From Spirochaeta africana DSM 8902 (GTDB lineage: Bacteria; Spirochaetota; Spirochaetia; DSM-27196; DSM-8902), in assembly GCF_000242595.2 (NCBI RefSeq), contig NC_017098.1, forward strand, positions 2,747,501-2,811,500: 64,000 nt of DNA, in the 5' to 3' direction. The translations under genes were made by a program, and so were the position numbers. Below the pieces are notes generated by a model, which searched no databases, had not been told where the DNA came from, and saw nothing but the letters and a program-made list of their open reading frames with translations. Below, one piece after another: positions 4,816 through 38,818 of the stretch. How positions within the stretch are numbered: position 1 is the stretch's first letter; the number at the start of each line of letters is the position of its first letter.

Positions 4816-4826
4816 CAGTTTTTATG

Positions 4827-6665: not shown

Positions 6666-6671
6666 GAAATC

Positions 6672-6700
6672 ATTATCAATGCGGTTTCCCTTTTTGGCAA
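6672..6700 (-). promoter_or_regulatory. Leaderless promoter of MCP 2
   Basis: TTGCCA (6695-6700), a 17-base spacer and GATAAT (6672-6677) end six bases before the ATG at 6665. Both boxes match five of six consensus bases. This promoter would lie inside the coding region if the longer start at 6731 were real. Confidence 0.55.
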
Positions 6701-6756
6701 CCGAAACCCCTGCAGTACTTGTGTAATCCATCCTTCATCGGTACAGTGGCAACGCT

Positions 6757-7956
6757 ATGAAAAATCAGCCTTCTGCAGTAATCATGATAATTCTCGGGGC
6801 CGTAGTAAATCTCTGCCTCGGCGCAGTGTATTCGTATAGTGTGTTTCGTCTGCCACTGGAACAGGAACTCGCCATTAACCCCGCTGCCAGCGGCTTTCCC
6901 TACATGGTGTTCCTGGCGATGTTTGCGCTCACTATGCCGTTCGCCGGATTTCTGCTGGAGCGCATCGGGCCGCGGGCAACGGCCCTGACCGGTGGCATGC
7001 TGACTGCCGGCGGCTGGCTGCTGGCCGGTTATGCCGGCGGGATTGGCCAGATTACCCTGACCTACGGGGTACTTGGCGGCATCGGCGTGGGAATCACCTA
7101 CGGGGTACCGCTGGCACTGGCAGCGCGCTGGTTTCCGCAACGCCCCGGCCTGGCGGCCGGGATCACCCTGCTCGGGTTTGGCATGTCGCCGTTCGTAACC
7201 GCACCCCTGGCCGGCTTCCTGATCGAAACCCTGGGTGTTCTGGCAGCCTTTCGTATCATGGGTGTCGGATTTGCTGCAGTTATCACACTCTGTGCACTGC
7301 CAATGCACCTCCCAGCAGCAGCCTCGCACAGCACTTCCCAGGCAGCGGGTGTTTCCCCGCGGGAAATGCTGCGCAGCACCCGATTCTGGGGATTATGGAT
7401 ATGCTTCACCCTGGGTACCGTAGTAGGTCTGACAGCAATCGGTATTACCAGCCCGGTAGCCCAGGTTGCAGGTGGCATGAGCTCGGCAGCTGCCGCTACA
7501 GCAGTCTCCATCATGGCTATTTTCAACGGGATTGGCCGGCCGTTGTTTGGCACCCTGACCGATAACATCGGCATCAGACGGGCAGCCCAGACTGCATTCG
7601 GTGTGATTGCAGCTGCTGCCGCCCTGATGCTGCTGGTCTGGCAGCTGCCGGCCGAGGCAGCCGCCCTGAGGATTGTGATGTTTGGCACCAGCTTTGCCGG
7701 CTTATGGCTGGTACTTGGCGGCTGGCTTGCCATTGCCCCGGCAGCAACCACCCAGATGTTTGGCCGCCGATTTTACAGCCGCAACTATGGCTTTGTCTAC
7801 ACCGCCTACGGGGCCGGGGCGATTATCGGCACCGTGCTTTCGGGCGCCCTGTACGATCTGTTCGGGGGATACCAGATGCTGTTTGCCGCCCTGCTGGGCG
7901 CCGGGATAGTCGGCCTGCTGGTATCGATTAAACTGCTGCCAAGCGTGCAGCACTGA
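6757..7956 (+). CDS. Major facilitator transporter, oxalate/formate antiporter (OFA) type
   Basis: 399-residue inner-membrane carrier with about twelve hydrophobic helices spread evenly along its length. The first helix carries the OFA-type pattern GAVYSYSVFRLPL, and the loop after helix 2 has LLERIGPRATAL, the MFS cytoplasmic-loop signature region. The loop after helix 4 reads ARWFPQRPGLAAGI, also typical of this subgroup. OFA carriers exchange or take up small monocarboxylates and dicarboxylates such as oxalate, formate or lactate. The substrate cannot be read from the sequence. The gene is divergent from the chemoreceptor pair, so a shared interest in an organic acid is conceivable but unproven. 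TACAGT nine bases before the ATG may be its -10, and there is no Shine-Dalgarno sequence. Confidence 0.86.
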   Translation: MKNQPSAVIMIILGAVVNLCLGAVYSYSVFRLPLEQELAINPAASGFPYMVFLAMFALTMPFAGFLLERIGPRATALTGGMLTAGGWLLAGYAGGIGQITLTYGVLGGIGVGITYGVPLALAARWFPQRPGLAAGITLLGFGMSPFVTAPLAGFLIETLGVLAAFRIMGVGFAAVITLCALPMHLPAAASHSTSQAAGVSPREMLRSTRFWGLWICFTLGTVVGLTAIGITSPVAQVAGGMSSAAAATAVSIMAIFNGIGRPLFGTLTDNIGIRRAAQTAFGVIAAAAALMLLVWQLPAEAAALRIVMFGTSFAGLWLVLGGWLAIAPAATTQMFGRRFYSRNYGFVYTAYGAGAIIGTVLSGALYDLFGGYQMLFAALLGAGIVGLLVSIKLLPSVQH

Positions 7957-7971
7957 CATACCGGCTATACC

Positions 7972-8053
7972 GCCTGCCCCTTGCTGGCACCGCCTGCTGT
8001 CTACAGCCTGCCCCTTGCTGGCAGGCGGGTCAGCTTTGCTGGCAGGCGGGTCA
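7972..8053. repeat. Short direct repeats downstream of the MFS gene
   Basis: GCCTGCCCCTTGCTGGCA occurs at 7972-7989 and 8006-8023. TTGCTGGCAGGCGGGTCA occurs at 8015-8032 and 8036-8053. The nested copies look like slippage products. Confidence 0.75.
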
Positions 8054-8063
8054 ACCCGGCCCC

Positions 8064-8113
8064 ACAGAATGCGCCGGACAACCACATTGTATCCAGTAAC
8101 CACCGCATTCTGT
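8064..8113. other. Inverted repeat between the convergent MFS and phosphofructokinase genes
   Basis: ACAGAATGCG (8064-8073) is the exact reverse complement of 8104-8113, with a 30-base loop. It sits 14 bases beyond the stop of the kinase gene and could end transcription from either side, but it has no T-run. Confidence 0.4.
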
Positions 8114-8127
8114 CCGGCCTGAGACGG

Positions 8128-9513
8128 CTAACTGTTTCCCCGGTTTTTATCCATTTTGGCCTTCTGCTCGGCCGTAGTTTCAATTGCTTCCTTGGTGTTG
8201 GTCATCATGACCGGCTGATGGGTAGCCTCGATCACACTGCGCCACAGGCTGCTCTGCGGATCGACATGATTGCGGCTGGCAACCACCAGCTCGATCGGCA
8301 GGTGCACATAATGATTATTAACCAGGCCGATCATGGTTTTGGTCTTGCCGGCCATGGCAGCATGGGCAGCGTTGTTGCCCAGCTGACTGCAGTACACCGA
8401 GTCGGTTGGCACCGCTACCGAGCTGCGGATCATGTAGCTTGGATCGATATATTTCAGGTTCTGATGGATCCCGGCCTTTTTGAACGAACTGGCAATCTTT
8501 TCCTTCAGGTACAGTCCTATATCCCCCAGCACCACATTACCGGAATCATCGGTCTTGCTGGCATCCCGCTCCAAAAGGGTCTGCCCTGCGCCCTCGGCCA
8601 CGATTACCACCGCGTGGCTGCGCCGTTCCAGCCGCTCGACCAAGTGCGCGATAAGTCCGTTCGGACCATCCAGCTCGAAAGGAACCTCGGGAATCAGCAC
8701 AAAATTCGCCTCATGGCTGGCAAGCGCGGTATAGGCAGCAATGAATCCGGACTCCCGCCCCATCACCTTTACCAGGCCAATGCCGTTGATTACCGACTGG
8801 GCCTCTACATGGGCACCGGTCACCGCCTCGGTGGCCCGCGCAACCGCTGTCTCGAAACCGAACGACCGCTGAATAAACTTGAAGTCGTTATCAATCGTTT
8901 TGGGGATCCCGATAATCGAGATCTTGAGCCCGCGGCGCTCGATCTCCCGGGCAATCGCCAGTGAGCCTTTCTGGGTTCCGTCCCCGCCAATAGTGAACAG
9001 AATATTCAGGTTCATACGCTCGATGGTGTCCACAATCTCCTCGGTGCGCTCACCGCCGCCCCGTGAGGTCCCAAGAATAGACCCCCCGATCTTGTGAATA
9101 TCATCAACCAGATCCGGGCTCAGATCTATTGGCGCTATCCCGTATTCCGGTATCAATCCCTTGTAGCCGTTGCGGATACCGGTTATCCGACGCACCCCGT
9201 AGCGGTACCACAGGGTCCGCACCACCGCACGAATCACATCATTTATTCCCGGACACAGGCCGCCGCAGCTGACAATCCCGGCATGCACGTGGGGTGGGCT
9301 GAAGTAGATCTTTGCACGCGGCCCGGCCTTCTGAATCAACTGGGATTCATCGGCGCACCAGGTCTCCTTGCGCTGTGGATCAAGATCAACATCGTAGATA
9401 ATTGCTTCATCGTCCGATACAAAGTTGGTTACATTGTGACCGGGCACCTTGTCGTAGGATATAGGTGATGAAATCTTGGAATCACCCAGACTCTCAATGG
9501 TAAAATCGTTCAT
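8128..9513 (-). CDS. pfkA: 6-phosphofructokinase, plant/spirochaete-type (probably ATP-dependent)
   Basis: 461-residue group II phosphofructokinase that phosphorylates fructose 6-phosphate to the 1,6-bisphosphate in glycolysis. Motifs: [10 protein letters not shown] near residue 85 for the phosphoryl-donor loop, [17 protein letters not shown] near 175, the catalytic PKTIDND near 208 and MGRESGF for sugar-phosphate binding. The glycine in GGDGT is the state associated with ATP use (PPi enzymes have GGDDS). The lysine in PKTIDND is shared by PPi enzymes and by ATP-using long-type enzymes such as those of plants and trypanosomes. ATP is therefore the better guess. An N-terminal extension of about 75 residues precedes the catalytic core, as in that subfamily. 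TACACT six bases before the ATG indicates a leaderless start. Confidence 0.92.
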
Positions 9514-18189: not shown

Positions 18190-19100
18190 CCATCAATCGC
18201 ACCATGCAGATCGTACTGGCTTCAGCAGGACTATGCTGTCTGTTCCTGCTGCCTGCCTGCACCACGGCTACCGACATTGGCACCCGGGTTGGTCAGGCTG
18301 CCGGGGTACTGGATGCCCGCCAGGCCGAGGGGATTCGTCGAACCGCAGAGCGAACCGAACGCAGCTTTGAGGATTTCACCCCGGAACAGGAGTATTTCCT
18401 CGGGCGATCGGTTGCCGCTCAGGTCCTTGATCGCTACCCGGTATATGACGATGAGCAGACAAACGGTTATATCAGCCTGATCGGGCAGAGCCTGGCAGTC
18501 TTTTCCGACCGTCCGGATATTTTCGCCGGCTACTCCTTCCAGATTCTGGACAGCGAAGAACTCAATGCTTTCGCAACCCCGGGCGGTCATGTATTTGTTA
18601 CCCTGGGAATGCTGCGCCTGGCTCGAAACGAGGACGAGGTTGCCGCCATCCTGGCACATGAGATAGCCCATATAACCGAGGCCCATGGCCTGCAGTCGAT
18701 CCGCACCGCCCGGATTACCGGCGCTCTTACCAGCGCCGCAATCACCGGGGTGTATCTGACCGGCAGTCGCGAGGTTGCCGAACTGACGGACATCTTCTCC
18801 GACTCGATCGATGATATGTCCCGGACACTGTTTACCAGCGGCTACTCGCGTACATCCGAGCGGGAGGCTGACCGCATAGCCGTAACCATTTTGCGCCGTG
18901 CCGGGTATAGTCCCCACGCGCTGGTGACCCTGCTGCAGCACATGGGGGAACACTGGAACCCGCAGGGGCGTGGCTACGCGCGCACCCACCCAAGCCCCCT
19001 GGACCGCATGCAGGATGTACAGGATGTGCTGGACGATGAGGATCCCCGTATTCCCGAACAGCGCATCGCCCGGTTTCAGCACTACCTGGGAGGGCTGTAG
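18186..19100 (+). CDS. M48-family zinc metalloprotease lipoprotein
   Basis: 304-residue protease with a signal peptide ending in the lipobox LPAC (cysteine near residue 25), so it should be anchored on the periplasmic face of a membrane. The zinc motif HEIAH is at about residues 159-163, followed by ITEAHGL, and the third ligand glutamate lies in TSEREADRIAV. The segment NAFATPGGHVFVTLGML before the zinc site is typical of Oma1/BepA/YggG proteases. There is no TPR domain, unlike BepA. It probably degrades misfolded envelope or outer-membrane proteins. It sits between an SH3 protein and a cyclase with overlapping or one-base spacing, so the three form one operon. Confidence 0.91.
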   Translation: MTINRTMQIVLASAGLCCLFLLPACTTATDIGTRVGQAAGVLDARQAEGIRRTAERTERSFEDFTPEQEYFLGRSVAAQVLDRYPVYDDEQTNGYISLIGQSLAVFSDRPDIFAGYSFQILDSEELNAFATPGGHVFVTLGMLRLARNEDEVAAILAHEIAHITEAHGLQSIRTARITGALTSAAITGVYLTGSREVAELTDIFSDSIDDMSRTLFTSGYSRTSEREADRIAVTILRRAGYSPHALVTLLQHMGEHWNPQGRGYARTHPSPLDRMQDVQDVLDDEDPRIPEQRIARFQHYLGGL

Positions 19101-19101
19101 G

Positions 19102-21228
19102 ATGCGGCGCATGCGCAACACCCGTCTGACACGCGGGGGCAGTATTGCGGTTGCAGCAGCAGCCCTGGCACTGTTGCTGCAGCTGTCCGGTGTGCTGACG
19201 GGCATCGAACAGGTCACCTACGACATGCGGGTGCGACTGCTGGCACGGAGCGAACCAGCGGCTACCGATACGGTGCTGATACTGGTGGACCAGTCCAGTC
19301 TGCAGTGGGGGCTGGAAAACCAGGGTCAAAGCTGGCCCTGGCCAAGGACCTACTATGCGGTTATCACCGATTTTGCCCGCCGTGCCGGCGCCGCCTCACT
19401 TACCTTCGACGTGATTTTCGAGGATGACAGCTTTTACGGCGTGAGCGATGACCAGACCTTTGCCGAGGCGGCTGATCGATTCGGCAGGACGGCCGTTGCG
19501 GCCTTTTATGGTGAACAGCGCGGCAGGTACACCGCATTCCCCGACTATGTACCACAGTCTGCCGCAGCCCTGGCATTGCCAGGGCTTGACCGCAGCCGCA
19601 TGCCCCGGCTGTCACAGGCCTCATTCCCGGTACCCGAACTCAGTCGCACCGCGCGCGCGATCGGCAATGTCCGCGGCTTTCCGGATGCTGACGGGGTGTA
19701 CCGCCGTATTCCCCCGCTTGCTGAATTTGACGATGCTCTGGTGCCCAGCCTGGCCCTGGCAGCCTATCTTGCCGACGCCCGGGAGGACGCAGCCCGGTCG
19801 GTCGACGGGAAACTGGCGCTGGATGGCACGGTACTGCCGCTTGATACTGCGGGCAACCTTGTCGTGCATTTTGACCTTGCCCGCGAAGCCCGCCAACGCT
19901 ACAGTGCCGCAGCCATCATTCAGAGCGAACTCCATCTGGCGGCTGGGGGTGATACCCCGCTGATAGATCCCGCTCAGCTGGCGGGGCGACACCTGCTGGT
20001 CGGGCTGTCTGCATCCGGGCTCTACGATCAACGGCCCCTGCCGATATCCGGCGAAGCCCTTGGTGTGGAGTTCCATGCTGCCATGCTGGAAAATTTCCTG
20101 TCGGGCAGCTATCTGCAACAGCCAGGAGCGGCATCGACCCTTATATACCTCATGCTGCTGTCTGCCCTCGGGGCATTCGGCGTAAGCCTTTCACGCCGAA
20201 CCGGTACCAGTGCGGCTGCCATAGCCGCCACCCCGCTTCTGCCAGCGGCTATTGCCCTGGGAGGGTACAGCCTGGGCTGGTGGCTGCCTGCTGTTGTCCC
20301 GGCAACTGCGGGGATAATCGGAGGGATTGCTGCTGCAGTGCTGAACTATGCCAGCGAAGGGCGGGAACGGCGCTTTATCAAGAGTGCCTTCAGCCAGTAC
20401 CTCAGCCCGATCGTGATTGATCGCCTGCTGAAGGATCCCAAGCGGCTGGAACTGGGCGGGGAACGGCGCGACCTGACGATCTTCTTCTCCGATCTGCAGG
20501 GATTCACCTCACTCAGCGAGGGACTGAGCCCGGATGAACTGACCCAGCTCCTGAACGAATACCTGACCGCCATGACCGATATTATTATCGGATCCGGGGG
20601 AACCATCGACAAGTACGAGGGCGATGCGATCATCGCATTCTGGAACGCGCCGGTCGATGTGCCGGACCACCCTGCCGTCGGGGTGAACGCTGCCCTGCAG
20701 TGCCAGCAGCGGCTTGCCGAGCTGCGCCCGGTGTTTCAGCAAAGGGTTGGCAAGGAACTGCATATGCGAATCGGCCTGAATACCGGCCCGGCTGTGGTGG
20801 GAAACATGGGATCACGACAGCGATTTGATTACACCATGCTGGGTGATGCAGTTAACCTGGCCGCCCGACTGGAGGGCAACAACAAGCAGTTTGGCACCTA
20901 CACCATGATATCGGCGTACACCGCCGCCCGGCTGCCGGAAACCATCCCCTGCCGTGAATTAGGCCGGATTGCAGTAGTGGGACGAGCCCGGCCGGTACAG
21001 GTATTCGAACCGATGCTGCAAGAGGACTACGCCCGGCGCCGGCGAAACCTTGAAGCCTTTGCCGCTGCACTGCAGCAGTACTACCAGGGGAATTTTGGCG
21101 CTGCCCGACAGGGGTTTGCCCAGCTGCCGGAGGATCCCGCGGCACGCAGTTATCATGATCGCTGCGCTCAGCTCGCGAAAAAACCGCCGCCGGAATGGGA
21201 TGGGGTGTGGATAATGGACAGCAAGTAA
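19102..21228 (+). CDS. CHASE2-domain class III adenylate cyclase
   Basis: 708-residue membrane cyclase. One N-terminal helix (about 12-32) leads into a periplasmic CHASE2 domain to about residue 330 (ILVDQSSLQWG, FDVIFEDDSF, GNVRGFPDADGVYRR are typical). Three membrane helices follow at about 345-445, and then the cyclase domain. All catalytic features are present: the metal aspartates in FFSDLQGF and YEGDAI, the adenine-selecting lysine in TIDKYEGD with its partner aspartate in RFDYTMLGD, and the transition-state Asn/Arg in NLAARLE. It should therefore make cAMP in response to an envelope signal. It starts one base after the M48 stop; an ATG three codons later is an alternative. Confidence 0.93.
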   Translation: MRRMRNTRLTRGGSIAVAAAALALLLQLSGVLTGIEQVTYDMRVRLLARSEPAATDTVLILVDQSSLQWGLENQGQSWPWPRTYYAVITDFARRAGAASLTFDVIFEDDSFYGVSDDQTFAEAADRFGRTAVAAFYGEQRGRYTAFPDYVPQSAAALALPGLDRSRMPRLSQASFPVPELSRTARAIGNVRGFPDADGVYRRIPPLAEFDDALVPSLALAAYLADAREDAARSVDGKLALDGTVLPLDTAGNLVVHFDLAREARQRYSAAAIIQSELHLAAGGDTPLIDPAQLAGRHLLVGLSASGLYDQRPLPISGEALGVEFHAAMLENFLSGSYLQQPGAASTLIYLMLLSALGAFGVSLSRRTGTSAAAIAATPLLPAAIALGGYSLGWWLPAVVPATAGIIGGIAAAVLNYASEGRERRFIKSAFSQYLSPIVIDRLLKDPKRLELGGERRDLTIFFSDLQGFTSLSEGLSPDELTQLLNEYLTAMTDIIIGSGGTIDKYEGDAIIAFWNAPVDVPDHPAVGVNAALQCQQRLAELRPVFQQRVGKELHMRIGLNTGPAVVGNMGSRQRFDYTMLGDAVNLAARLEGNNKQFGTYTMISAYTAARLPETIPCRELGRIAVVGRARPVQVFEPMLQEDYARRRRNLEAFAAALQQYYQGNFGAARQGFAQLPEDPAARSYHDRCAQLAKKPPPEWDGVWIMDSK

Positions 21229-26691: not shown

Positions 26692-29600
26692 TCAGAACAG
26701 CTGCACCCGCGCTCCGAAGCTCATCTTGAAAAATACCTCGGGGCTTACATCCGACGGAATAAACCACACCTGTGGCTCGGTATACAGCGAATATGCGTTA
26801 AAGGCCGGCCAGTCCACCGAAATCCTGGGGAACTCAAGCTGGGCAACAATGCCGCTCAGCACTACCCCGGTAGTCGCATCGGCATCCTCCATACCGCCGG
26901 GAACGATCGGATCGTACAGCTGGATGTAATTAAAACTTGCCCCGAGAGCCACGTTCAGCGACAGCCATTCCCAGTCCGGTCCAAAGAATGCATTAAACGG
27001 CACCGCAGCAACGTTGGCCAGCAGTTTGCCGCCGTAGAATGCCCCGGCAAACCGCACCGGCTCACCATCGACCGTTTCCTCGGGGCTTAAGCCCCACTGC
27101 GCCTGCAGCTTTACATTCTCGTCAAAAAAGGTAAGCCCCAGCCCGAGCTGAAAATAGGTCAGTCCCAGGGCATTCACATCGAAGTACATCCCCTGCACAA
27201 ACCCCGGCACCGCGTACCGCGACTTGTCGCCGCGCCGCAGAGCCAGCTCGATCTCCTCGACACCATGCTCATCCTCGGCAGTCCCCTCGAGCTCGATGCG
27301 GGTATTCAGTCGTGCGTCTTCCTCGGGGCTGAGCAGGGTAATCCGGGGCGGCTGTTTGTCAACAGTCACAATGGTTCGGGTAACCGCTGTCTCACCATTC
27401 TCGTAGCGGGCGCGAACTATAATTGCCAGCGGCCCGTCCGGCACATCGGCCGTCTCTATCCGGTATCGCCACTCCTCGCCACCACGCGCCGTTGCAAAGG
27501 TGCGTCCGTTGTCCAGACTCACCTGTACCTCCTCTACCCGCAGCTCACGCAGGGCCGAACGGTTCCCGCGGTCATCCTCATCCAGGTCGTGGATATAGCC
27601 TGCACGCCCGGATATCCAGGGCCGGTCGGCCACAAAGTCACCTGCCTTATGGCTTTCGATTGTCACATACGGTCCCAGCGGGGCAAAATCGAACACCGCC
27701 GGATCGGACAGTACCCGCTCCCCGGAGCCCGGTTCGATCACCGCCTGCAGCTCGTTACGGCCTGCCGACAACTCCTCGGCCGGCAGCTCATAGCGAAAGT
27801 AGCCCCGCGAGTTTACCGATGCGGTGTCCAGGAGGGCACCGTTCAGCAGCAGCTGTACCCTGCGCACCGGCACCGCAGCCCGGGCAAGACCCTCGGCCAC
27901 CACCAGCCCGGAGGCATCACTGCCATCCTGTGGGAACAGCAGCGACACAAACGAGCTCTGCAGATCATCCTGGACATACACATTCCGGGCCTGTACCGTC
28001 TCGTTGTCAGCAGCATCACGGGCCGTAAGGCGTAGATTGTACCAGCCCTCATCAAGACCCCCGATGTCGATCGTCTCGCGCACAACGGTGGCGGTCGGCA
28101 GCTCAAGTTCCTGCATCGGGCCGTCATGCCCGATCGGTTCGATTGCCAGTGAAAGCGATACCACCTCGATATTATCCGAAACACGCCCGTTCAGCAGCAG
28201 CTCCTGGGAAACCACATCGTTGTTGTCCGGCATGGTGATCGCCAGCTCGGGCGGGGTATTGTCGATATTGATCAGGGTAAAGTAGGTGGCGGCAATCCCG
28301 TAGCTGTCCAGCGCCACAACCTGTACCGAGTAGGTACCATCCTCGAATATGGTGGTGTTCAGGTCGTAGTACCATTCACGCAGGGCCACGGGTTCGGCCG
28401 AATCACCGGAGGCCTCTGTCGCATCATCGTCGCCTGCCGCATCGCCGCCGCCGGCATCCGCCGGGCCTGATCCATCAGCATCCGCCTGGTCCCCGCCGTC
28501 TTCATCAACCGGCACCAGCCGGGCCATCTGAAAGCTGTTGCCGTTGTCGAACGACAGCAGCACCGCCTGGATACCGTTTGCATCTACGGCCGTGCCCTCC
28601 AGGCGTATCCGCTCGCGATTGGTCTCCTCCACCCGAGGGGCGGTCATCTCGATCTCCGGCTCCTGCAGGCTCACCCGGATGGTGCGGCGTTCCACCTCAC
28701 CCTCCAGGCCGTAGTAGTCGACAGCATACATCTCAATCGTGTGTTCGTTGTCATCCAGAGAATCCAGCGGGATATCTACCGAGAAACTGTTGCCCCCCGG
28801 CAGCTGGCGGAATTCTCCATCCCCGATACGCCAGTAGATCTCGCGCACCGCATCATCGTCGAAGGCCATCCCGCTCAGGGTAAAGTCGCTGGTAATAACC
28901 GCGTTCTCCTCCGGAATCTGGATATCCACCACCGGGAGATCGTCTTCCAGACTGACCTGCGGCTGCGGGACAGCGGTACCGGTATTGCCAGCCGCATCGG
29001 TTGCCCGAAATACAACCTGCTGCTCATCCAGCAGCAGCTGGGAAAAATCCACCTCGTGGTCTATCCAGCTGCCAACCGGCAGCGGGGAAAACACCTCGCC
29101 GTCAAGGCTGTAGGAGAGCTCCGTAATCCGGCTCAGAGAGGTTACCTCCCCGACCACACTGGTCAGACCGTTGATTACATCCTCATCCGGCGGGGTAACA
29201 AAGCGAAACTCCGGCGGAGCCGGATCGTACACCACCGGAATCCAGTGCTCCACTACGCGTCCGGTGCTGTCACGCCCCTGGATGAATACATGATGCGCCC
29301 CGGGACTCAGCCCGTCCAGCACAAGATCGTGTGCAAACCGCCCGCCGGTGCTATCGGCGGCAGTATCCTCGCCAGATCCACCGGCCGGGTCGCCCTGCCC
29401 GCCATCAGCGCCAGCTTCACCATCCGCCGCATCTCCGGCAGCCTCGCGAATCTCGAGGCTGGTAAACAACCCCTCATGCCCGATACGGTAATACAGGCCA
29501 TCCAGCCCGACCTGGTCGCGCAGGCTGCCCCGCAGCGGCAGAATCGCCGACCCCGCAAACCCGGGATCCGGCCCCTCTACCACCAGCTCGGGCTCCATGT

Positions 29601-32600
29601 AGTCGACAATCGCACGGCGAGCCGGCACCTCGTAGACAACCCCGTCTATCGTGGTAACCCGCAGCCCGACCGACTCGGCCGTCCCCACTGCCACCGGCTC
29701 CAGTCGCACCCGCCGACCATCGACCGAGACCTCGAACAGCTCATCGCCACCGATCAGCTCTGCCGATGCCAGCGGCCGCCCGTCAAACACCCCATCCAGA
29801 GGCTCCTGGCTGGTCACGGTAAAGGCTTCCTCGGTAACCCGGACATCGGCGAACAGCAGCTCGTTGCGGTAGCCCGGGGCATCCCCGGTCGCTTGCACGG
29901 TAAACCCGATCCGCCGCACCGCTTGCAGCCCTTCGGCATCCACCGCCTCTATCTCCAGCTCGTGCTCACCGTATGGCAGCGAGTTGGGCAGGGTAAGCGA
30001 GAACCCCTGTGCATGCCGTACACCCTCGGCGGCCCGGGTCCGTTCCCTGTTCCAGTCGCCACCGTTCACCCGCCAGCGCAGGCTGTCCAGCCGCTCGGCA
30101 TTGTACACTATACCATTCACCTCACTGCGCTCACCCAGCGGCACCCGGAAGCCCTGCCGGACAGCCGCTCCGTCGGCCCCGCCAACCCGTTCCAGCCCGA
30201 TATCCATCCCCGGGGATGCCACAGTAAAGCGCACCCGCTGCTCGCGCACGGCCGGCTCGGCATGGCGATCGGTTGCCCGGATCGTCACATCGTGGTCGCC
30301 AGGCTCCAGCCCGGTAACCTCAAACAGAAACGGCTGATGATGCCGTCGGTCATCAAAACGCTGCGCCTGACGGAACTCCCCGCCGTTCACCGAGTACTCT
30401 ACCTGCCGGGTACCATCCAGATCGCGTACAATACCGCCAATCTGTACCGGGCCCTGCACCACCCCGCGCGCCGCCGGAAACAGGATATCCACCTCCGGGC
30501 GATCGTTGCGTCGCCCCTCGGCCTCCGGCCCGCTCGGCAGCGGCTGCGATGCGGCACGGTTCACCACCCGGCGGGCAACCCCCAGGTTCCCGTGCTCGTC
30601 CCAGACCCGGACCACCACCGCAGCCCCAGTGCCGCCCTCGGGGAGCCCGAGGTTCTGCGAAAACGACTGCTCCTCGCCGCTTCCCTGCAGCGACAGCGGT
30701 ACAAACTCGGCACCGCCATTCACCGAAACCTCGGCCCGGACAACCGGCGAGGCATTGGTAACCGTCCCGCTCACCCGCAGGCTGCCCCCGGTCACATCCG
30801 GCCCGGTCGGTTCTTCAAGCTCTACCACCGGATTCTCCCGGTCAACCCTGAAGCTGAACGGCCCCTCGGCCAGCTCGATCACCTGTCCGTCGGGAGCCTC
30901 GACCTCGGCATACAGCATGACATCCTCGGCGCTGCCATCACCGGTGGCCTCGATCACCACCAGATCATCCTGCACCCGCAGCTGTACGAACTCAGGCTCC
31001 GGCTCCAGTCGCACCCCGGCGAACACATCACCGCGCCCGCCGTTCGCCCCGATCAGTCGCGCCTCCAGGGGATTGCGCCCGCGCAGCACCACCCTGCCAT
31101 CCGCACCAACCCGCTCGTCGGCAATCCAGATCCCCGGATCCCGCTCGGTACGGCGCAGATCCCGGTAGTAGAGCTGCCCGCGCAGCTCGGCTTCGGCACC
31201 CAGATCATCGGTTACCTGCAAAGTCACCGGCACCCGGCCAAAGCGATCCCCGCGCGGCAGGGAAAAATAGAACTCGGTGCGGGTCTCCCCGTCGGCCGCA
31301 TCCAGGCGACTGGTGCGCACCCGCACCTCCTCGGCCTGCTCACCGGCACCCACTACCGCGATAATCGAGTCGATCCCGGCGCGGCTGCGAATCTCGCCGT
31401 ACAGCTCACCGGAGCGCACCCGGTCAAACTGCAGACCGCCAGCATACCCGACCGACTCCCCGTCACTGTATACCAGCCGGGTAAACCCGGCCTCCGGCTC
31501 GGCCGACCGGTGCACAAACCGCAACCGCAGCTCCTCGCCCTGGTAGCCCGACTCGTCAACCGGGGTAATCCGCAGATCCAGCCGCCCGGCCGGGGCATCT
31601 TCCAGCGGGATCGCAAACCCCGGATAGGCCGGAAACTCGCGCGCCTCGCCGCCGCCCAGACCGGTCACCTTCACATGCGACGCCCGGTGCGGCCCCTCGA
31701 CCACCCCGTAGATCACCGCGCCCGGATCCACCGAGCTCACTGCATCCTCGCCGGTCAGCTGCGGCGACTGGATCACCAGCCCCGGCCGTCCGGCATCCTG
31801 ATCATTGCTCAGGCGATGCCGCAGCCGGGTGCGATTCCCGCTGGTATCCTCGGCATAGAAATTCACATCCGCGTTGCGCCCGCGCGCACCAAGGGTGTCG
31901 ATCTCCACACTCCAGTAGGGGTTCCCCGGGATCAGCTCGATCTCATGCTCCTGCCCGTCCCACTCATACCAGAAGCGTTCAACCCCGACCTCATCGCGGA
32001 TCGCCCCGCTCAGACGCACCCGCCCGAACGCCGGCGAACCCTCCTCGGGCTCCAGCACCGTAATCTCCGGGCTCTCGTTATCGATAAAAAACAGAAAAGC
32101 ACTCTCGGACTGTGCACCGGTGGTATCGGTCGCCCGCAGCCAGTACACCGCCTCGCCGTCCGGCTTGCGATCGCTGCGCACATCAAACCGGAAGGTATCA
32201 AAATCATCTCCGCGGGAACCGCGCACCCGCAGCTCCTCCCAGCTCTCGCGCCCGTCACGGCTCAGCTCCAGCCGATCAATCCCGTTGGCATCGCTGACCT
32301 GCCCCTCAAAGCGCACCCGGCCATTCACAATGCTCCCGCTCTCATGGCTGGTAACCCGGATAACCGGCGGCTCGGTATCCAGCAGAAACGAGGACTCGTA
32401 GACATCCCCCTCCAGCCCGTTGATATCCACCGCCCGCACCTCGATATGGTGCTCACCGTCCTCAAGGACCCCTGCCGGCACCTGATAGCGCCAGTACTCG
32501 GCACCCTCGGCCCGCTGCCAGGACCCCTCATTCACCCGGACATCGACATGCCCGACCGCATCGTCGTCTACCGCCACCCCGACAATATCCACCGGTCCCC

Positions 32601-32895
32601 GCACAATCTCGCCCGGCTCCGGATAGATAATCCGGGACACCGGCTTGTCCGACTCCGGATCCACCCGCAGATTGTACGGCCCCTCGATGTACTCGTTCCC
32701 GGCGAAATCCCGCCCGCGAATAATAATATTGTAGGTTCCCGGATTATGCTCCGAAATATCGATCTCGTGCGACCAGTTCTCGGTCCCCTCGACCTCCTGC
32801 CACGCATCCTCCGGCGTACCCATGCCCGCTGCGACTCCTGCAGCCCACACCATCAGCGCACCCGCAATCAGTCCCTGTTTCATCAATCCGCGCAT
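26692..32895 (-). CDS. Giant secreted Ig-repeat protein with C-terminal outer-membrane barrel-like domain
   Basis: 2067-residue exported protein. Residues 1-24 are a signal peptide (likely cut at AAG|MG). By eye about 18 Ig-like modules of roughly 90-110 residues follow. Each opens with a pattern like PPxIxVxxPxxGxxVxGxVxxxGxVxD and closes with a DxxGN-type turn, resembling the repeats NCBI calls OmpL47-type or bacterial Ig. Two acidic Asp/Gly/Ala-rich linkers lie near residues 1150-1190 and 1465-1500. From about residue 1890 the chain switches to seven or eight alternating amphipathic strands rich in Phe/Tyr/Gly and ends in VQLF, a terminal phenylalanine as recognised by the BAM machine. Outer-membrane anchoring is my inference. 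A GGGAG Shine-Dalgarno sequence supports the ATG at 32895. It follows the other giant gene in the same direction. Confidence 0.82.
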   Translation of the reverse strand: MRGLMKQGLIAGALMVWAAGVAAGMGTPEDAWQEVEGTENWSHEIDISEHNPGTYNIIIRGRDFAGNEYIEGPYNLRVDPESDKPVSRIIYPEPGEIVRGPVDIVGVAVDDDAVGHVDVRVNEGSWQRAEGAEYWRYQVPAGVLEDGEHHIEVRAVDINGLEGDVYESSFLLDTEPPVIRVTSHESGSIVNGRVRFEGQVSDANGIDRLELSRDGRESWEELRVRGSRGDDFDTFRFDVRSDRKPDGEAVYWLRATDTTGAQSESAFLFFIDNESPEITVLEPEEGSPAFGRVRLSGAIRDEVGVERFWYEWDGQEHEIELIPGNPYWSVEIDTLGARGRNADVNFYAEDTSGNRTRLRHRLSNDQDAGRPGLVIQSPQLTGEDAVSSVDPGAVIYGVVEGPHRASHVKVTGLGGGEAREFPAYPGFAIPLEDAPAGRLDLRITPVDESGYQGEELRLRFVHRSAEPEAGFTRLVYSDGESVGYAGGLQFDRVRSGELYGEIRSRAGIDSIIAVVGAGEQAEEVRVRTSRLDAADGETRTEFYFSLPRGDRFGRVPVTLQVTDDLGAEAELRGQLYYRDLRRTERDPGIWIADERVGADGRVVLRGRNPLEARLIGANGGRGDVFAGVRLEPEPEFVQLRVQDDLVVIEATGDGSAEDVMLYAEVEAPDGQVIELAEGPFSFRVDRENPVVELEEPTGPDVTGGSLRVSGTVTNASPVVRAEVSVNGGAEFVPLSLQGSGEEQSFSQNLGLPEGGTGAAVVVRVWDEHGNLGVARRVVNRAASQPLPSGPEAEGRRNDRPEVDILFPAARGVVQGPVQIGGIVRDLDGTRQVEYSVNGGEFRQAQRFDDRRHHQPFLFEVTGLEPGDHDVTIRATDRHAEPAVREQRVRFTVASPGMDIGLERVGGADGAAVRQGFRVPLGERSEVNGIVYNAERLDSLRWRVNGGDWNRERTRAAEGVRHAQGFSLTLPNSLPYGEHELEIEAVDAEGLQAVRRIGFTVQATGDAPGYRNELLFADVRVTEEAFTVTSQEPLDGVFDGRPLASAELIGGDELFEVSVDGRRVRLEPVAVGTAESVGLRVTTIDGVVYEVPARRAIVDYMEPELVVEGPDPGFAGSAILPLRGSLRDQVGLDGLYYRIGHEGLFTSLEIREAAGDAADGEAGADGGQGDPAGGSGEDTAADSTGGRFAHDLVLDGLSPGAHHVFIQGRDSTGRVVEHWIPVVYDPAPPEFRFVTPPDEDVINGLTSVVGEVTSLSRITELSYSLDGEVFSPLPVGSWIDHEVDFSQLLLDEQQVVFRATDAAGNTGTAVPQPQVSLEDDLPVVDIQIPEENAVITSDFTLSGMAFDDDAVREIYWRIGDGEFRQLPGGNSFSVDIPLDSLDDNEHTIEMYAVDYYGLEGEVERRTIRVSLQEPEIEMTAPRVEETNRERIRLEGTAVDANGIQAVLLSFDNGNSFQMARLVPVDEDGGDQADADGSGPADAGGGDAAGDDDATEASGDSAEPVALREWYYDLNTTIFEDGTYSVQVVALDSYGIAATYFTLINIDNTPPELAITMPDNNDVVSQELLLNGRVSDNIEVVSLSLAIEPIGHDGPMQELELPTATVVRETIDIGGLDEGWYNLRLTARDAADNETVQARNVYVQDDLQSSFVSLLFPQDGSDASGLVVAEGLARAAVPVRRVQLLLNGALLDTASVNSRGYFRYELPAEELSAGRNELQAVIEPGSGERVLSDPAVFDFAPLGPYVTIESHKAGDFVADRPWISGRAGYIHDLDEDDRGNRSALRELRVEEVQVSLDNGRTFATARGGEEWRYRIETADVPDGPLAIIVRARYENGETAVTRTIVTVDKQPPRITLLSPEEDARLNTRIELEGTAEDEHGVEEIELALRRGDKSRYAVPGFVQGMYFDVNALGLTYFQLGLGLTFFDENVKLQAQWGLSPEETVDGEPVRFAGAFYGGKLLANVAAVPFNAFFGPDWEWLSLNVALGASFNYIQLYDPIVPGGMEDADATTGVVLSGIVAQLEFPRISVDWPAFNAYSLYTEPQVWFIPSDVSPEVFFKMSFGARVQLF

Positions 32896-33138
32896 GTTCT
32901 CTCCCGTTTTTACCTGCCGTCCGCAGTCTCGTCTTTTATTTGTATATCCACACATGGGGGAAGTCTCCCCCCGCCTTCAGCCCGAACCGGCCAGTCCGGG
33001 CGCTTACCCGCTTCGCAGAACCGCCCCGGCCGGTGTCCACCGGCCGCAGCCCCGCCGGGCGCGCTTTTCCCCGGCTCCGTCACCTCCGCCGGACCGCGCC
33101 CCGGTCTTGCGGCACCCCCTCATCAGGGGGTGCTGCAG
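32896..33138 (-). other. GC-rich spacer with stem-loops between the two giant genes
   Basis: 243 bases without a gene. Besides the hairpin at 33112-33133 there are two perfect stems: GGGGGA/TCCCCC with a four-base loop (32956-32971) and GGCCGGTG/CACCGGCC (33028-33045). No convincing promoter is seen, so the spacer may control the ratio of the two messages or stabilise their ends. Confidence 0.4.
33112..33133 (-). terminator. Strong hairpin just after the giant lipoprotein gene
   Basis: GCACCCCCT (33112-33120) pairs perfectly with AGGGGGTGC (33125-33133) around a four-base loop, six bases after the stop codon. No T-run follows, so it may be a processing or partial termination signal rather than a full terminator. 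Confidence 0.5.
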
Positions 33139-36100
33139 TTAATCTTCATCGTTGGGCATCAACCTGGCGTACTCCAGTCTGTCCGCCAGCCAGCCAACCA
33201 CCGGCAGGTTCTGCTCCTCTGCCGAGTAGGTGCCGATCTGGGTACGATTGAACTGCTCCATGCCGCCACGGGGAGGACTGGCTGCCGGCACTGCCATTGC
33301 CTCCCAGTTGCCGGTGTAGCGTTCGTCCTCCCCGGCACCATCCCGGTGCATATTTTCTGCTGCGGTACGGCCATTGGCCGCAACCGGATACGCCAGGCGA
33401 ATCGGACTCCTGGTACCATTGTACGAATCTGCGTAATACGAAATATGCGGCAGGCCATCAATCAGCTCGATGTTGGTCCAGCTGCCGGTCGAAAGATAGC
33501 TGTCAACCACCACCGGTGTACTCACGGTCTTGGTCGCCCAGTCGATGGTCAGGAATTTCAGGCTGGCGTTGCCGCCGTCGAAATACGCCACATACACGGT
33601 GGAATCATCGGCGGCCGCCGACACATACCTGCCCTGAAAATCATCCGCATCAAGCGTCATGTTGCCCCAGCTAGAACCCGGGTCCGCCAGGCTGTCGTCA
33701 TCGGTATGGTCACTCGAGTAACTCATCTTGAGGTTCTGGTCGGTCTCATCGTAGTACACCACTGCGATATCCCCATCGATCATGATCAGTGAATGATATC
33801 TGCTGGAAGCGCCATCCTCGGTACCGGGAACAGTTATATTTCCATTTGAGGCAATGCTTGCATCATTGGCAGGACGAGTGAGATTAGATGCAGGGAAATT
33901 GTTCGTGGCTCCCCTGACATCAAACGAGAAGAACCGGATATACCGGGCGTCAGGGTGAGCATCGTAGTAGGTCAGGTATATCTGTGTGTTTGCATTGGTC
34001 CCGGTGGCAATCAGATTGGGATACTGGAACCGGTTCAGCTGTCGCCCCAGATAGTCGGTACCTACCAGCTCCATAACCCGGTTGTTGTTTGTTGGAGTAC
34101 CCACTGCGGCATTAGCATTTCGCCCCGTATTCAGCTGCAGAAACCCGATATTCCCGCCACTAAAGGCATCCTGGGTGGAGACCATAAAATCCGGGCTGTT
34201 CGCCGCATCGTTGTAGGCCAGTGCGGTCTGGCGTTCAAACCATAACCCTACCCTGCGGGCAGAACTCTGATCCCCGGTGGTAATCCGGGCCGCGCCATCA
34301 TTGTCATCGGTATAGCTGAACACCGGCTGTCCATTACGGACCACCATGGACGGATAGTAGAATGTCTGATCACTCACCCCGGTCAGCATCCGGGTTACCC
34401 CCCATACATGCAGGTAGCGGTCGTCATTCCACTGCTCACTGCGGGGGTTCCAGTCTGTTTCGCTGTTATCCACCCTGTTGTTAATCGAGGCCACCCCGTT
34501 GGCAGACACCTGCAGATAGCCAGAGTGTGAAAGCTCACCCGGGCTGGTAGAGACCTCAATAGAGGTTGCACCATCAGAGAAGGACTCGATCTCCGGATTT
34601 GCTAACGCTGTTCCGGACTCTTCGCGATTGTTGAATATGCGCACCGCCGAGTTCGGGGTCCCGGACCTCGGCAGGTTGAACCCGTCAACCACGAAACTCT
34701 CGCCATCGAATTGCCGGATGGAGTAAGCCCCGGTAGCACTGCGCAAAACAGCGTGCGCCAGCCCCTGATTGGTGGCTGTGTTGCGAAGCCCGGTTATGTA
34801 CGGCACCACATCGTAGGACTGTGCAGCCTCTGTCGGCGGAGGCGATCCTGTCCGGAAATCCTGAGCCGTCAGTGTTACCGGCACATCAAATCCTGCCACA
34901 TTCGGTAATTCTGCGGTGTTCCAGGTCAGTTCCCAGCTGATCTCATGCCCGTCCGTTACGCTCAGAGACTGGGAAACAATCTCGAATCCATCGATGCGCG
35001 AACGCAACTCGTGCACATCGGTATCCCAGTCAGCAGCAACCACATTGTCTTGTATCCCGGGAATACTCAGCCGCAATTCCTGAATCCGCTGATCATCCCC
35101 GGCACTGCCGCTGATGATCACCTCGCCACTGACCGATGGACGACCCTCGTTGTGGGGGCTGACCGCCTCCACATGCCCGGCACGCAGGCTGCCGTTCATA
35201 GCCGGCTCCGGCAATCCGTCTATGGTAATGGTTGGCGGGGTGGTATCCTCCTGATCCACCGCAACCAGAATCGCCTTTTCTACGGTAATGCCGACAGCAT
35301 CGGTTACCCGGATAATGAACTCATCCTCGCCATCATCGATATCCTGCAGGCTGTAGGTATGGTCACCCACAACCGGAGTCAATACTTCATCATCATGTAG
35401 AATCTCGATATCATTCGGGTCGTTGCCGCCAGCAACCTCGGGCTCGATATAGATGAACCCGCGTGCATTGAAGCGGGCATTATAGGTAAAGCGTTCAGCC
35501 TCATCCACCTCACCGTCATAGTTCAGGTCGGTTCCGACCGTAACATCACCGATTACCGGCTTGTAGTTCTGGATAAATCCCTCTGTCATACCATGGGTAC
35601 GGTTGTCGGCATTGTCCCAGGCCACATAATGTATCTCTACCGGGCCGTCTCCGAGAGCAGTAGTATCGACCTCTGCCTCCCAGATATAGTCGTTACTGAC
35701 GGTGCGAATCCGCTTTCCGTTATCACCCAGATTATGCGAGCGCAGGATCTTGATTTTATGATCCTCGCTGTCGGTATAGGGAACAAACCCCTGACCGCCG
35801 CCAAAATCGGTGTCGGCTGCTTCCTGAGCCACGCCGCCCCCGATGTGCAGCACATCATCACCACGCACAAAGTACACCTCGACCTTGCGGATATTCCCGC
35901 CGGTTCCCGGATCCCGGGCTACACCGGAGAGGAATACCGAGCTATGCGGAGATTCATTCAGATTGTGCATGTCACCAAGCTGCTCTGCGGACCCGTCCAC
36001 CCGGGTCTCGCTGCTCATGACCTCCGGAAAGCTGTTGTCAACGTACAGACTCAAGGTTCGTTCCGTCAGGTATCCGGTTGTATCCTCAACCCGTATGCGA

Positions 36101-38658
36101 ATCCGCATACGATCGCTGGTATCGGGAAAATAGTCGGTCGAGTCAATCGGGATAGATACAGGCACATTGGTACCCGGGCTGAAGCTGTAGTTGTTCCAGT
36201 TCGTCCCGTTATCCAGGCTGTAGCGAATACTGGATATCTGGGCACCGCTGCCGTCATCCTGTTTGACTGCATCGAACTCCAGGGTGAATTCTCCGGAAAC
36301 GTACTCATTCTCCTCGTAGTTCATGTTCAGGATAGCCGGCAGGGTGTCATCAAACTGCACCCGCACATCGACCGCATCCCCGACAACACTGGGAGCACCG
36401 CTACCGTCCAGCTTCTGGTCAACCGCACGCACCCGAATCAGGAAGTTCCCGGTGTGACCGCTGATACCCGCCAGATCATCCAGCGAGTACAGCTCTCCCT
36501 GCTCATTCAGTCGCGCCGACCACAGGCTGGTGCCGTTGATCGGCCGCCAGGCATTCTCCCATGACTCATCCGGATTGGTGGTGTCCGGGTTGGCTGGATC
36601 TACCAGCTCGTAGGGATTCCCGGCACCCTCGGAGGCGGTAAAATCCCGCACGATATAGTGCTCCTGCCCGTCCACCAGGGCAATCAGCTGCATCTCCACC
36701 CGTTTGATCGCATCGTCATCTACCGCTGTGCCGGTAAAATTCAGCGAACCGGCTACACGATTTACGGATGGATACTCCTCCTGGGGAGAGATGATGTTGG
36801 TAATCTGGGGCTTGTCACCATCCTGATCCAGGACAATGTAGTAGTCCTCGTCGCTGTAGCCGACATTCCCTGCCCGGTCGTACACCCGCACCTGCAGCGG
36901 CAGCTCCCAGATATTCGGACTGATCTCATCTGCATCGTCCGGGTTTGAGAACAGGGGGCTGTCCAGCAGATATTCCCAGTTGTAGGTACCGTCGAGCGGA
37001 ATAACCTCCTGTTGCTTTCCAACCAGCAGCTCAACGCGATCCAGCAGCAGGTTGTCGTCTGCCGAACCGACAATACGCACAAAGTTGTTGACCGACCGCC
37101 CTTTGGTCGGCGAAACAATCTGGGCAGTCGGCGGGGTATCGTCAATCGTTACAATGGTGTTAAAGAAGGTCTGCTTGCCGCTGGCATCACGCACCCGGGC
37201 GCGCAGGGTAACCTGTCCCGTCGGGACATCTTCCAGGGTAATGTTCCAGCTGCCGTCGCCAGCAGGCTGAACGGGGTCGGTGTAATCGGTGTGTTCGTTG
37301 ACTCGTACTGATACCTCGAGCGGATCATTCTGGCCAACAGCACCCCCCGAGACCTCTACCGTACGACTGTTCAGATACTGCCCCTGCTGAGGGCTGGTTA
37401 TCTCGACATATGGCGCACCGGCATCGATCTCGAACCCTACCCAGGGGGTAGTCCGGCTGAAGCCAAGCAGATCGGTAGCCTCTACCTGCAGTTCATGCAC
37501 ACCCGGTTCGAGCAGTTCGATGCCCGCAGAGGAATTTTCAAAGGTCCAGCGTACCACCTGGTTGCCGCTCAGGCTCATCCGGTCGCTGCTGCGGTTGTAC
37601 CACTCGGTGGTATCATCCCCACTGCGAAAGCGAATCCTGACCGAGTCCAGGTCAATCCCGTCGGGGTCTTCTACCAGCCCGACAAAGCGGGCGTTCGGCG
37701 GCAGCACGTTATCATCCAGGCTGCTATCCTGATCAGGGTAGCTCACGGTAATAACCGGAAGGTTCTCGTCCTGGTCGATATAGACCTGCACCCTGCGGGA
37801 CTCATCCGATTCGGGAAGATAGCGGCGCGCATCCCGGAGTGTTTGCAGGGATGGTGAGCTGCGCCTCCCGATCTCAATCTGGTGCAGGTCGGTCACCAAC
37901 AGATCAGACAGGTCGTCATCAGCGCGCAGATCGTCATCGTGGTAGAAATGGGTACTCACGTTCCCGGAGCGGTCCCAGGCACGCACCCCGAACAGAACAT
38001 TTCCGGAACTCGCCACATAGTCAGTGCTCCGAAACACGACACTCCAGCTGTTGGTCCCGATTGCGGCATCTTCGGGGGAGCGCCACAGCTCTGCGCCCGA
38101 GGACGCACTATATGCCATTACCTCTACCCGGCTTACTCCGTACTCGTCGGCAGCGGTACCGCTGACCACTATGTCGCCGTAATAAGGATTGTCGGGCGAG
38201 GTAGCAAAATTACGCGGGGTATTCATAACCACGGTAGGCGGCTGATTATCAAAGTACAAGAGCAGACGGGTTTCGGTTACCTTGCCGGCAGTATCACGGA
38301 CATAAAAAACGAAATTCTTTTCCCCGTCGGAGTATTTGGTGGTATCGAGCTTGTAGCTCCACTCCCATTCACCGTTTGTCCGCTCAAGATCAGCGCGCAT
38401 GCTGACTGTCTCGCCGTCTTCGGTAAACTGAATGGTCACGCGATCCACCGTGCGGTCATCGCTCGCAGTCCCGCTCAGGGTAATGGTGCCGCGGACATAG
38501 TCACCATTCTCCAGTGAACCCACCCGCACCGAAGGCGGTTCGATATCCACCGTACTGCCCAGCCCTACCTGGAACGGGTTTTCGCATGAGACAGAAAAGA
38601 CAGCCGCCACTGCGGCAACGATCGTCCAGCGGACGACCCGGCGCGTATATACACTCAT
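33139..38658 (-). CDS. Giant Ig-repeat lipoprotein with EF-hand-like loop, IPT-like domain and C-terminal propeller
   Basis: 1839-residue lipoprotein. The signal peptide ends in FSVSC, with the lipidated cysteine at residue 25. About ten Ig-like modules follow (PPSVRVGSLENGDYVRGTI, PPTVVMNTP, APYVEITSPQQGQYL, PPTAQIVSPTKG and so on). At residues 1044-1055 DLNYDGEVDEAE is a full EF-hand calcium loop with acidic or Asn residues at positions 1, 3, 5, 9 and 12. Near residues 1290-1400 an IPT/TIG-like domain is suggested. The last 430 residues contain repeated short blocks such as HSLIMIDGDIAVVYYDETDQNLKM and VYVAYFDGGNASLKFL, like blades of a BNR/sialidase-type propeller. There is no enzyme motif I can name. 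Surface binding or a structural role is an inference. GAGGT six bases before the ATG fixes the start. Confidence 0.82.
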   Translation of the reverse strand: MSVYTRRVVRWTIVAAVAAVFSVSCENPFQVGLGSTVDIEPPSVRVGSLENGDYVRGTITLSGTASDDRTVDRVTIQFTEDGETVSMRADLERTNGEWEWSYKLDTTKYSDGEKNFVFYVRDTAGKVTETRLLLYFDNQPPTVVMNTPRNFATSPDNPYYGDIVVSGTAADEYGVSRVEVMAYSASSGAELWRSPEDAAIGTNSWSVVFRSTDYVASSGNVLFGVRAWDRSGNVSTHFYHDDDLRADDDLSDLLVTDLHQIEIGRRSSPSLQTLRDARRYLPESDESRRVQVYIDQDENLPVITVSYPDQDSSLDDNVLPPNARFVGLVEDPDGIDLDSVRIRFRSGDDTTEWYNRSSDRMSLSGNQVVRWTFENSSAGIELLEPGVHELQVEATDLLGFSRTTPWVGFEIDAGAPYVEITSPQQGQYLNSRTVEVSGGAVGQNDPLEVSVRVNEHTDYTDPVQPAGDGSWNITLEDVPTGQVTLRARVRDASGKQTFFNTIVTIDDTPPTAQIVSPTKGRSVNNFVRIVGSADDNLLLDRVELLVGKQQEVIPLDGTYNWEYLLDSPLFSNPDDADEISPNIWELPLQVRVYDRAGNVGYSDEDYYIVLDQDGDKPQITNIISPQEEYPSVNRVAGSLNFTGTAVDDDAIKRVEMQLIALVDGQEHYIVRDFTASEGAGNPYELVDPANPDTTNPDESWENAWRPINGTSLWSARLNEQGELYSLDDLAGISGHTGNFLIRVRAVDQKLDGSGAPSVVGDAVDVRVQFDDTLPAILNMNYEENEYVSGEFTLEFDAVKQDDGSGAQISSIRYSLDNGTNWNNYSFSPGTNVPVSIPIDSTDYFPDTSDRMRIRIRVEDTTGYLTERTLSLYVDNSFPEVMSSETRVDGSAEQLGDMHNLNESPHSSVFLSGVARDPGTGGNIRKVEVYFVRGDDVLHIGGGVAQEAADTDFGGGQGFVPYTDSEDHKIKILRSHNLGDNGKRIRTVSNDYIWEAEVDTTALGDGPVEIHYVAWDNADNRTHGMTEGFIQNYKPVIGDVTVGTDLNYDGEVDEAERFTYNARFNARGFIYIEPEVAGGNDPNDIEILHDDEVLTPVVGDHTYSLQDIDDGEDEFIIRVTDAVGITVEKAILVAVDQEDTTPPTITIDGLPEPAMNGSLRAGHVEAVSPHNEGRPSVSGEVIISGSAGDDQRIQELRLSIPGIQDNVVAADWDTDVHELRSRIDGFEIVSQSLSVTDGHEISWELTWNTAELPNVAGFDVPVTLTAQDFRTGSPPPTEAAQSYDVVPYITGLRNTATNQGLAHAVLRSATGAYSIRQFDGESFVVDGFNLPRSGTPNSAVRIFNNREESGTALANPEIESFSDGATSIEVSTSPGELSHSGYLQVSANGVASINNRVDNSETDWNPRSEQWNDDRYLHVWGVTRMLTGVSDQTFYYPSMVVRNGQPVFSYTDDNDGAARITTGDQSSARRVGLWFERQTALAYNDAANSPDFMVSTQDAFSGGNIGFLQLNTGRNANAAVGTPTNNNRVMELVGTDYLGRQLNRFQYPNLIATGTNANTQIYLTYYDAHPDARYIRFFSFDVRGATNNFPASNLTRPANDASIASNGNITVPGTEDGASSRYHSLIMIDGDIAVVYYDETDQNLKMSYSSDHTDDDSLADPGSSWGNMTLDADDFQGRYVSAAADDSTVYVAYFDGGNASLKFLTIDWATKTVSTPVVVDSYLSTGSWTNIELIDGLPHISYYADSYNGTRSPIRLAYPVAANGRTAAENMHRDGAGEDERYTGNWEAMAVPAASPPRGGMEQFNRTQIGTYSAEEQNLPVVGWLADRLEYARLMPNDED

Positions 38659-38707: not shown

Positions 38708-38748
38708 AACAGTATCTACCGATAACCTTAACAGTAACAGTATATACC
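38708..38748. repeat. Direct repeats AACAGTATMTACC between the giant lipoprotein and hflX
   Basis: AACAGTATCTACC (38708-38720) and AACAGTATATACC (38736-38748) differ at one base; a further AACAGTA lies at 38730-38736. They occupy the AT-rich divergent promoter region and may be protein-binding sites. Confidence 0.4.
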
Positions 38749-38818
38749 CTTTTTTTATATATGACAATTTCTTTCGGGCTTGGTACCGGCCCGGCTTTCC
38801 CTGCGCCGCTTTCCCTGC

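Follow-up and report, generated by a model that had tools for sequence, protein, structure and literature searches.

What kind of envelope structure could be built from two adjacent giant genes that together occupy about 19% of the DNA analysed? In the single-contig genome of Spirochaeta africana DSM 8902 (3,285,855 bp), the minus strand of the whole stretch under study (hereafter designated the window; 64,000 nucleotides, bases 2747501–2811500) carries gene A (33139–38658) upstream of gene B (26692–32895), separated by a gap of 243 bp. The pair is bordered by a divergently oriented gene for an HflX-type GTPase on one side and by adhE on the other, and each of the two genes is present in one copy in the genome. 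An earlier note, made from the sequence of the window, had described the products as exported proteins of 1839 and 2067 residues built from about 10 and 18 Ig-like modules, one a lipoprotein displaying a propeller and the other ending in a barrel-like domain with a terminal Phe, and had proposed that they rise as towers that jointly span or decorate the envelope.

The intergenic region (32896–33138, minus strand) holds a strong hairpin after the stop codon of A and, beyond it, a GC-rich RNA fold of very high stability (z −4.3, −123 kcal/mol for the intergenic fold). Despite this strong fold, no known riboswitch is seen between A and B, because neither the window nor the intergenic region gave an Rfam match at the gathering threshold or at E values up to 1. 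Upstream of A lies a sigma-70-like promoter, TTGTCA-17-TATACT (38739–38767, minus strand), which is proposed from its consensus match only (10/12). A 31-bp intergenic stretch (33070–33100) has three distant genomic copies with 84–97% identity, suggesting a small dispersed repeat. Elsewhere in the window, positions 18970–21228 encode a sensor protein with CHASE2 and adenylate/guanylate cyclase domains.

Protein A (1839 residues) starts with the lipobox VFSVSC25, whose lipidation site, Cys25, is the only cysteine in the mature forms of either protein. Cys25 belongs to a conserved N-terminal peptide, C-x(n)-GLG-xx-VD-x(n)-P (38533–38586, minus strand); the peptide following it in S. africana, VGLGSTVD, is seen again in the form C-x(n)-GLG-xx-VD among 78 A-type open reading frames of related loci, a constancy that is partly by construction since these frames were selected with this motif. 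Many of them were also recovered independently with the propeller profile. According to profile searches, about 10 Ig modules follow (residues 42–1270; 34849–38535, minus strand), with Big_7 (PF17957) matching four stretches at E 2.4e-23 and 83 bits (gathering cut-off, 24.1), and then a TIG-like stretch and a C-terminal propeller (residues 1416–1839; 33142–34413, minus strand). AlphaFold2 (AF2) modelled the C-terminal region as a seven-bladed propeller with a pTM of 0.75 and a mean pLDDT of 73. In VIA-align comparisons, its top structural matches were the Photorhabdus PLL fucose lectins (Z 23.6–25), the best being PLL4 (Z 25.0, rmsd 3.0, 293 aligned residues, 11% identity), with E. coli YncE behind them (22.8). 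It is a plausible guess from the modelled fold that the propeller binds sugar.

The open frame of B begins at 32955 and encodes 2087 residues from its first ATG, or 2067 residues from the second one at 32895, which is preceded by a GGGAGAG ribosome-binding site and followed by a clean signal peptide (MRGLMKQGLIAGALMVWAAGVAA; 32827–32895, minus strand). By profile, B comprises 15 complete or near-complete Ig domains and two half-domains, one at either end of the array; the stretches 602–708 and 1027–1121, which received no profile assignment, probably hold two more, giving a total of about 18. Big_7 matched nine stretches of B at E 2.6e-56 and 188.6 bits, far above the same gathering cut-off. 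Across the family, B ranges from 880 to 2443 residues and the Ig number is widely variable. The shortest natural pair found (L121, 1–4563 and 4518–7184) combines an 880-residue B (4518–7160, minus strand) with an A directly after it; no other full-length B below 1200 residues was detected. In Treponema sp. CETP13 (L123, 6258–10175, identical to locus L101), the B frame is missing its N-terminal part and begins with a poly-Phe/T run (VFFFFSS), which suggests a frameshift at the homopolymer or an assembly error.

The C-terminal domain of B (26695–27192, minus strand) was examined by family alignments and by AF2 modelling of residues 1568–2087 (the last 520 residues) with 66 relatives. The model (pLDDT 91) contained three Ig domains, strands A and B of a half-Ig, and eight barrel strands; the orphan segment for strand C of the half-Ig, having no partner there, was disordered (pLDDT 48). 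The eight strands (mostly with pLDDT of about 90), the signal peptide, the terminal Phe and an alternation of outward hydrophobic residues, read by eye from the strands, all fit a predicted outer-membrane β-barrel. This barrel occurs once in each B-positive genome tested and in none of the tested B-negative ones. No sequence relative of it was detected in Pfam, NCBIfam or the PDB, and PDB sequence searches with the whole proteins and with barrel profiles returned nothing significant. The autotransporter barrel PF03797 weakly matched one of 20 family members (0.0078), the barrel of the window having no Pfam match; in the fold comparison of the 520-residue model the matches were filled by Ig domains, so that the barrel was barely probed.

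Both ends of the barrel lie on the side of the short turns S2–S3 and S4–S5, which are constant across the family, and the loops S3–S4, S5–S6 and S7–S8 on the opposite side from the termini are variable and carry the length changes. In outer-membrane barrels, the variable surface loops are usually opposite the termini. Because both barrel termini are on the side of the short conserved turns with the variable loops opposite, we infer from the model that the Ig chain of B lies on the periplasmic side of the outer membrane. The adjacent co-directional genes, protein sizes, module numbers, lipoprotein assignment, propeller and barrel described in the earlier note were confirmed, the Ig content being far beyond chance. 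Its placement of B in the outer membrane is supported by the predicted barrel, and surface display of B is opposed by this topology; a joint spanning of the envelope by A and B is not supported. The straight tower is likewise doubtful for B, since its N- and C-terminal ends seem to combine into a single Ig, a relationship that the note had missed.

The first Ig of B is missing its first half, which sits just before the barrel. Mature B starts partway through an Ig (WQEVEGTENWSHEIDIS...GTYNIIIRGRDFAGNEYIEGPYNLRVDP), and the final Ig preceding the barrel breaks off within the domain (PRITLLSPEEDARLNTRIELEGTAEDEHGVEEIELALRRGDKS). The N-terminal half (32647–32820, minus strand) corresponds to Ig model positions 42–92, namely the strands after C, and the C-terminal half (27202–27348, minus strand), directly preceding the barrel, to positions 1–41, namely strands A–C; the remaining Ig array lies between the two (27352–32643, minus strand). 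This arrangement holds across the family: when a model was derived from the first intact Ig of every B, the C-terminal half covered positions 1 to 37–42 in each of the 76 members, and the N-terminal half covered mostly positions 37–45 to 76–91 (72 members). When the halves were fused in silico in the order C-terminal half plus N-terminal half, one domain spanning both was recognized in 60 of 69 cases, as against 0 of 69 in the reverse order. Moreover, the linkers on either side of the split Ig are similar to those that join the other Ig domains of B. In two relatives of another class, a coiled coil precedes the N-terminal half, yet the missing strands are still absent; the B homologues L124 (4854–11147) and L125 (5170–11322) carry it as a Lys/Glu-rich insertion.

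Whether the two halves have evolved as parts of one domain was assessed against an Ig contact map obtained by mean-field direct coupling analysis of 2272 intact Ig domains of the A and B families (effective number, 1836), the half-domains being kept out of this set by length. The resulting pattern was clearly antiparallel, pairing strands C and F (34–72, 36–70, 38–67), B and E (17–58, 19–56, 22–53), and A′ and G. At the contacts crossing between the two halves of 105 B proteins, the mutual information (MI-APC) had a mean z of 0.81, a value reached by none of 253 slid contact maps (best, 0.52); in the same test, the intact first Ig gave 1.36 and two mismatched pairings gave −0.05 and 0.08. On recomputation, the split pair scored 0.79, compared with 0.62–0.81 for four intact domains (the second, third, last but one and last Ig) and −0.12 to 0.28 for ten mismatched half pairings. 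Partners shuffled within clades did not attain the observed value at any of the three cluster levels used (0 of 200 trials per level). Potts energies learned from intact Ig domains had the expected sign for the natural pairing (0 of 2000 permutations), but the effect was weak (mean percentile, 0.59), and this test was less specific, one mismatched control reaching 31 of 2000. Because coevolution falls at the contacts of an intact Ig and the half-domains map to complementary positions, the two ends of B very probably form one Ig, either within one molecule or between two; as in self-closing repeat proteins, both termini would contribute to one domain.

B was found in 28 of 61 relatives searched, and a scan of 84,980 genomes yielded 182 relatives of its conserved C-terminus, the best 80 of which are all spirochaetal and include the named organisms Treponema ruminis and T. 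zioleckii. Spirochaetes with B come from the rumen, termites, sediment and other sources. Of 393 sampled Spirochaetota genomes, 109 contained B; it was absent from Borreliaceae-like and T. pallidum-like small genomes, from many families of other classes, and from two families in which FlaA is missing or almost missing. FlaA is a marker of periplasmic flagella; it was found in all 109 B-positive genomes, and B was found in 0 of 46 FlaA-negative ones, an association that reflects only a few independent losses. B is not needed for a lifestyle with periplasmic flagella, since Borreliaceae-like, T. pallidum-like and Brachyspira-like genomes possess such flagella but no B.

A adjoins B in 88 of the 142 loci whose flanking DNA reaches 1.5 kb or more on both sides, on the same strand in 82 of these, mostly within a few hundred base pairs and in either order. 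Where no A was adjacent, one was found elsewhere in 33 of 37 B-positive genomes, as against 0 of 11 B-negative ones, and the lengths of A and B are correlated (Spearman 0.41, p 0.02, n = 31, uncorrected for phylogeny). By sequence, the A–B pair is conserved across Spirochaetia, Treponema included, where several A paralogues occur. The earlier note had advanced a two-gene envelope system to be checked by synteny and by barrel prediction; the genes are indeed conserved as neighbours and a barrel is predicted. A third gene as a constant part of the system was considered and rejected, different genes lying between A and B in different relatives; in L029 (12240–13373) and L035 (3158–4231), for instance, these are solute-binding-protein-like genes on the opposite strand. 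The literature searched contained no paper on the A–B pair, and for T. denticola locus tags in its vicinity it yielded nothing beyond hypothetical genes, none of them assignable.

Collectively, the architecture, the barrel, the propeller fold, the association of the two genes and the pairing between the half-domains are supported by computation, and we somewhat favour a model in which B is a periplasmic Ig hoop (or filament) anchored in the outer membrane that, with A as a lectin-like lipoprotein partner, acts as an envelope scaffold. After Sec export, the BAM machinery would insert the barrel of B into the outer membrane, holding about 17 complete Ig domains (15 by profile and two presumed) on the periplasmic side and presenting strands A–C at the inner face of the membrane just before the barrel. 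The free N-terminus of B, bearing the remaining Ig strands, would then dock on strands A–C to form one Ig. Intramolecular docking would generate an unbroken hoop attached to the membrane where it closes, and intermolecular docking an endless anchored filament. A, as a lipid-anchored Ig rod, could supply a second rod with a glycan-binding propeller tip, perhaps in contact with B, and the two proteins together might provide a length-adjustable scaffold or tether in the envelope of free-living and host-associated spirochaetes. In its simplest role, such a scaffold would space the outer membrane from the cell body or tie both together. Counting against this model, the widely varying Ig number in B implies that no fixed geometry is required.

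For the split Ig itself, we put closure into a loop within one molecule at roughly even chances, if not slightly better. The hoop would consist of about 18 modules with a contour of very roughly 70 nm. The fuller version, in which a giant Ig hoop, sealed by its own N- and C-termini and pinned by its barrel, could span or encircle periplasmic structures such as the periplasmic flagella and would make up, with its lectin-like lipoprotein rod partner, a previously undescribed envelope scaffold, is put forward only tentatively.

Head-to-tail polymerization of B is a serious, if doubtful, competitor of the closed loop. By a logic analogous to donor-strand exchange in pili, the N-terminal half of one B would complete the C-terminal half of the next, producing an Ig filament beneath the outer membrane in which every subunit has its own barrel anchor. 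The coevolution and linker data are equally consistent with this arrangement, as coevolution reads the same for a loop and for a polymer, and tandem B genes exist: L114 carries two complete ones (821–5086 and 5092–9318), and two B genes are also present in L141/L073 and in genome G315. However, no chaperone or initiator gene was seen, and where a genome offered two B proteins that could be scored, as in two cases, the cis scores exceeded the trans scores (27.6 vs 24.1 and 26.5 vs 20.5), a comparison with n = 2 in which homopolymers would look alike.

We regard it as unlikely that A and B are instead external stalks of a surface adhesin pair, with the lectin propeller of A binding glycans of a host or the environment and B serving as an anchor or co-adhesin, a reading akin to Leptospira LigA/LigB or RTX adhesins. 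The resemblance of the A propeller to the PLL fucose lectins (Z 25) would suit such a function, as would the several A paralogues of Treponema and the long Ig rods, which are characteristic of adhesins, among them SiiE and the ice-binding 4p99, both found in the Foldseek matches. An eight-stranded barrel, however, offers a passenger no route to the surface, its N-terminus is predicted to be on the periplasmic side, and a single host ligand is unlikely for a pair shared by spirochaetes of rumen, termite, sediment and other origins. Finally, although repeat proteins commonly have truncated terminal repeats, it is highly improbable that the half-Igs are merely degenerate end modules whose complementarity and covariation reflect shared ancestry, as almost every member is cut at the same position of the Ig, the cut is retained even behind a coiled coil, and the covariation sits at intact-Ig contacts, is absent in the ten mismatched pairings and is gone after within-clade shuffling.

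For many spirochaetes, the A–B pair ranks among the larger investments in genes; it is conserved from free-living relatives of Spirochaeta up to Treponema, and the barrel domain of B is nameless in Pfam and NCBIfam. Chain ends that complete each other's Ig on an outer-membrane anchor would offer a direct and testable handle on how the outer membrane is held and spaced relative to the cell body, and the split-Ig pair could be tried as a binding module.

Compared with known systems, protein A resembles Leptospira LigA/LigB as a spirochaetal Ig-repeat lipoprotein, differing from them in that it matches Big_7/Big_13 instead of the Lig-type domain (Big_2 was not among the Pfam matches of A or B at E values up to 1) and ends in a propeller. 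This propeller shares the seven-bladed fold of the Photorhabdus PLL proteins, which are free lectins, whereas A is a giant lipoprotein. B is reminiscent of the Leptospira OmpL47-type proteins, which are likewise spirochaetal and outer-membrane-associated and possess a domain resembling part of its Ig domains; it scored below the cut-offs of both NF047446 (39.9 bits; cut-off, 40) and NF047441 (34.6; cut-off, 250), A reaching 18 bits with the former. Unlike those proteins, for which to our knowledge no split Ig is known, B very probably has one, together with a barrel found in no profile model. The RTX-type adhesin model Ca_tandemer (NF033510) gave 36.5 for B and 32.1 for A, both below its cut-off of 50. 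In combining an Ig rod and an outer-membrane barrel in one chain, B is similar to intimin/invasin and to classical autotransporters. The barrel of the former, inverse autotransporters, is N-terminal, whereas that of B is C-terminal and eight-stranded, with the Ig chain ahead of it on the predicted periplasmic side; classical (type Va) autotransporters have a 12-stranded PF03797 barrel. Ig arrays, eight-stranded barrels and propellers are of known kinds as parts; the proposed combination, a permuted array closed by a composite Ig on an outer-membrane barrel, matches no family tested.

For the closure itself, parallels come from rings. In the β-ring of complement C3 and α2-macroglobulin (MG1–MG6), which also consists of Ig-like domains, MG6 is built from two separate chain segments, and C3 and its relatives were among the best structural matches to the Ig domains of B (Z 9–12). 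B differs from them in its low identity (about 8%), an rmsd of 5–7 and its membrane barrel, and A2M, thioester and MG domains of Pfam were not detected in A or B at E values up to 1. The velcro closure of WD40 and kelch β-propellers similarly forms the ring-closing unit from N- and C-terminal strands; in B, the closing unit would be a whole Ig, joining a chain of about 17 Ig domains on an outer-membrane barrel. By analogy, the propeller velcro and the two-piece MG6 of the C3 ring appear to be the nearest counterparts of the closure proposed for B.
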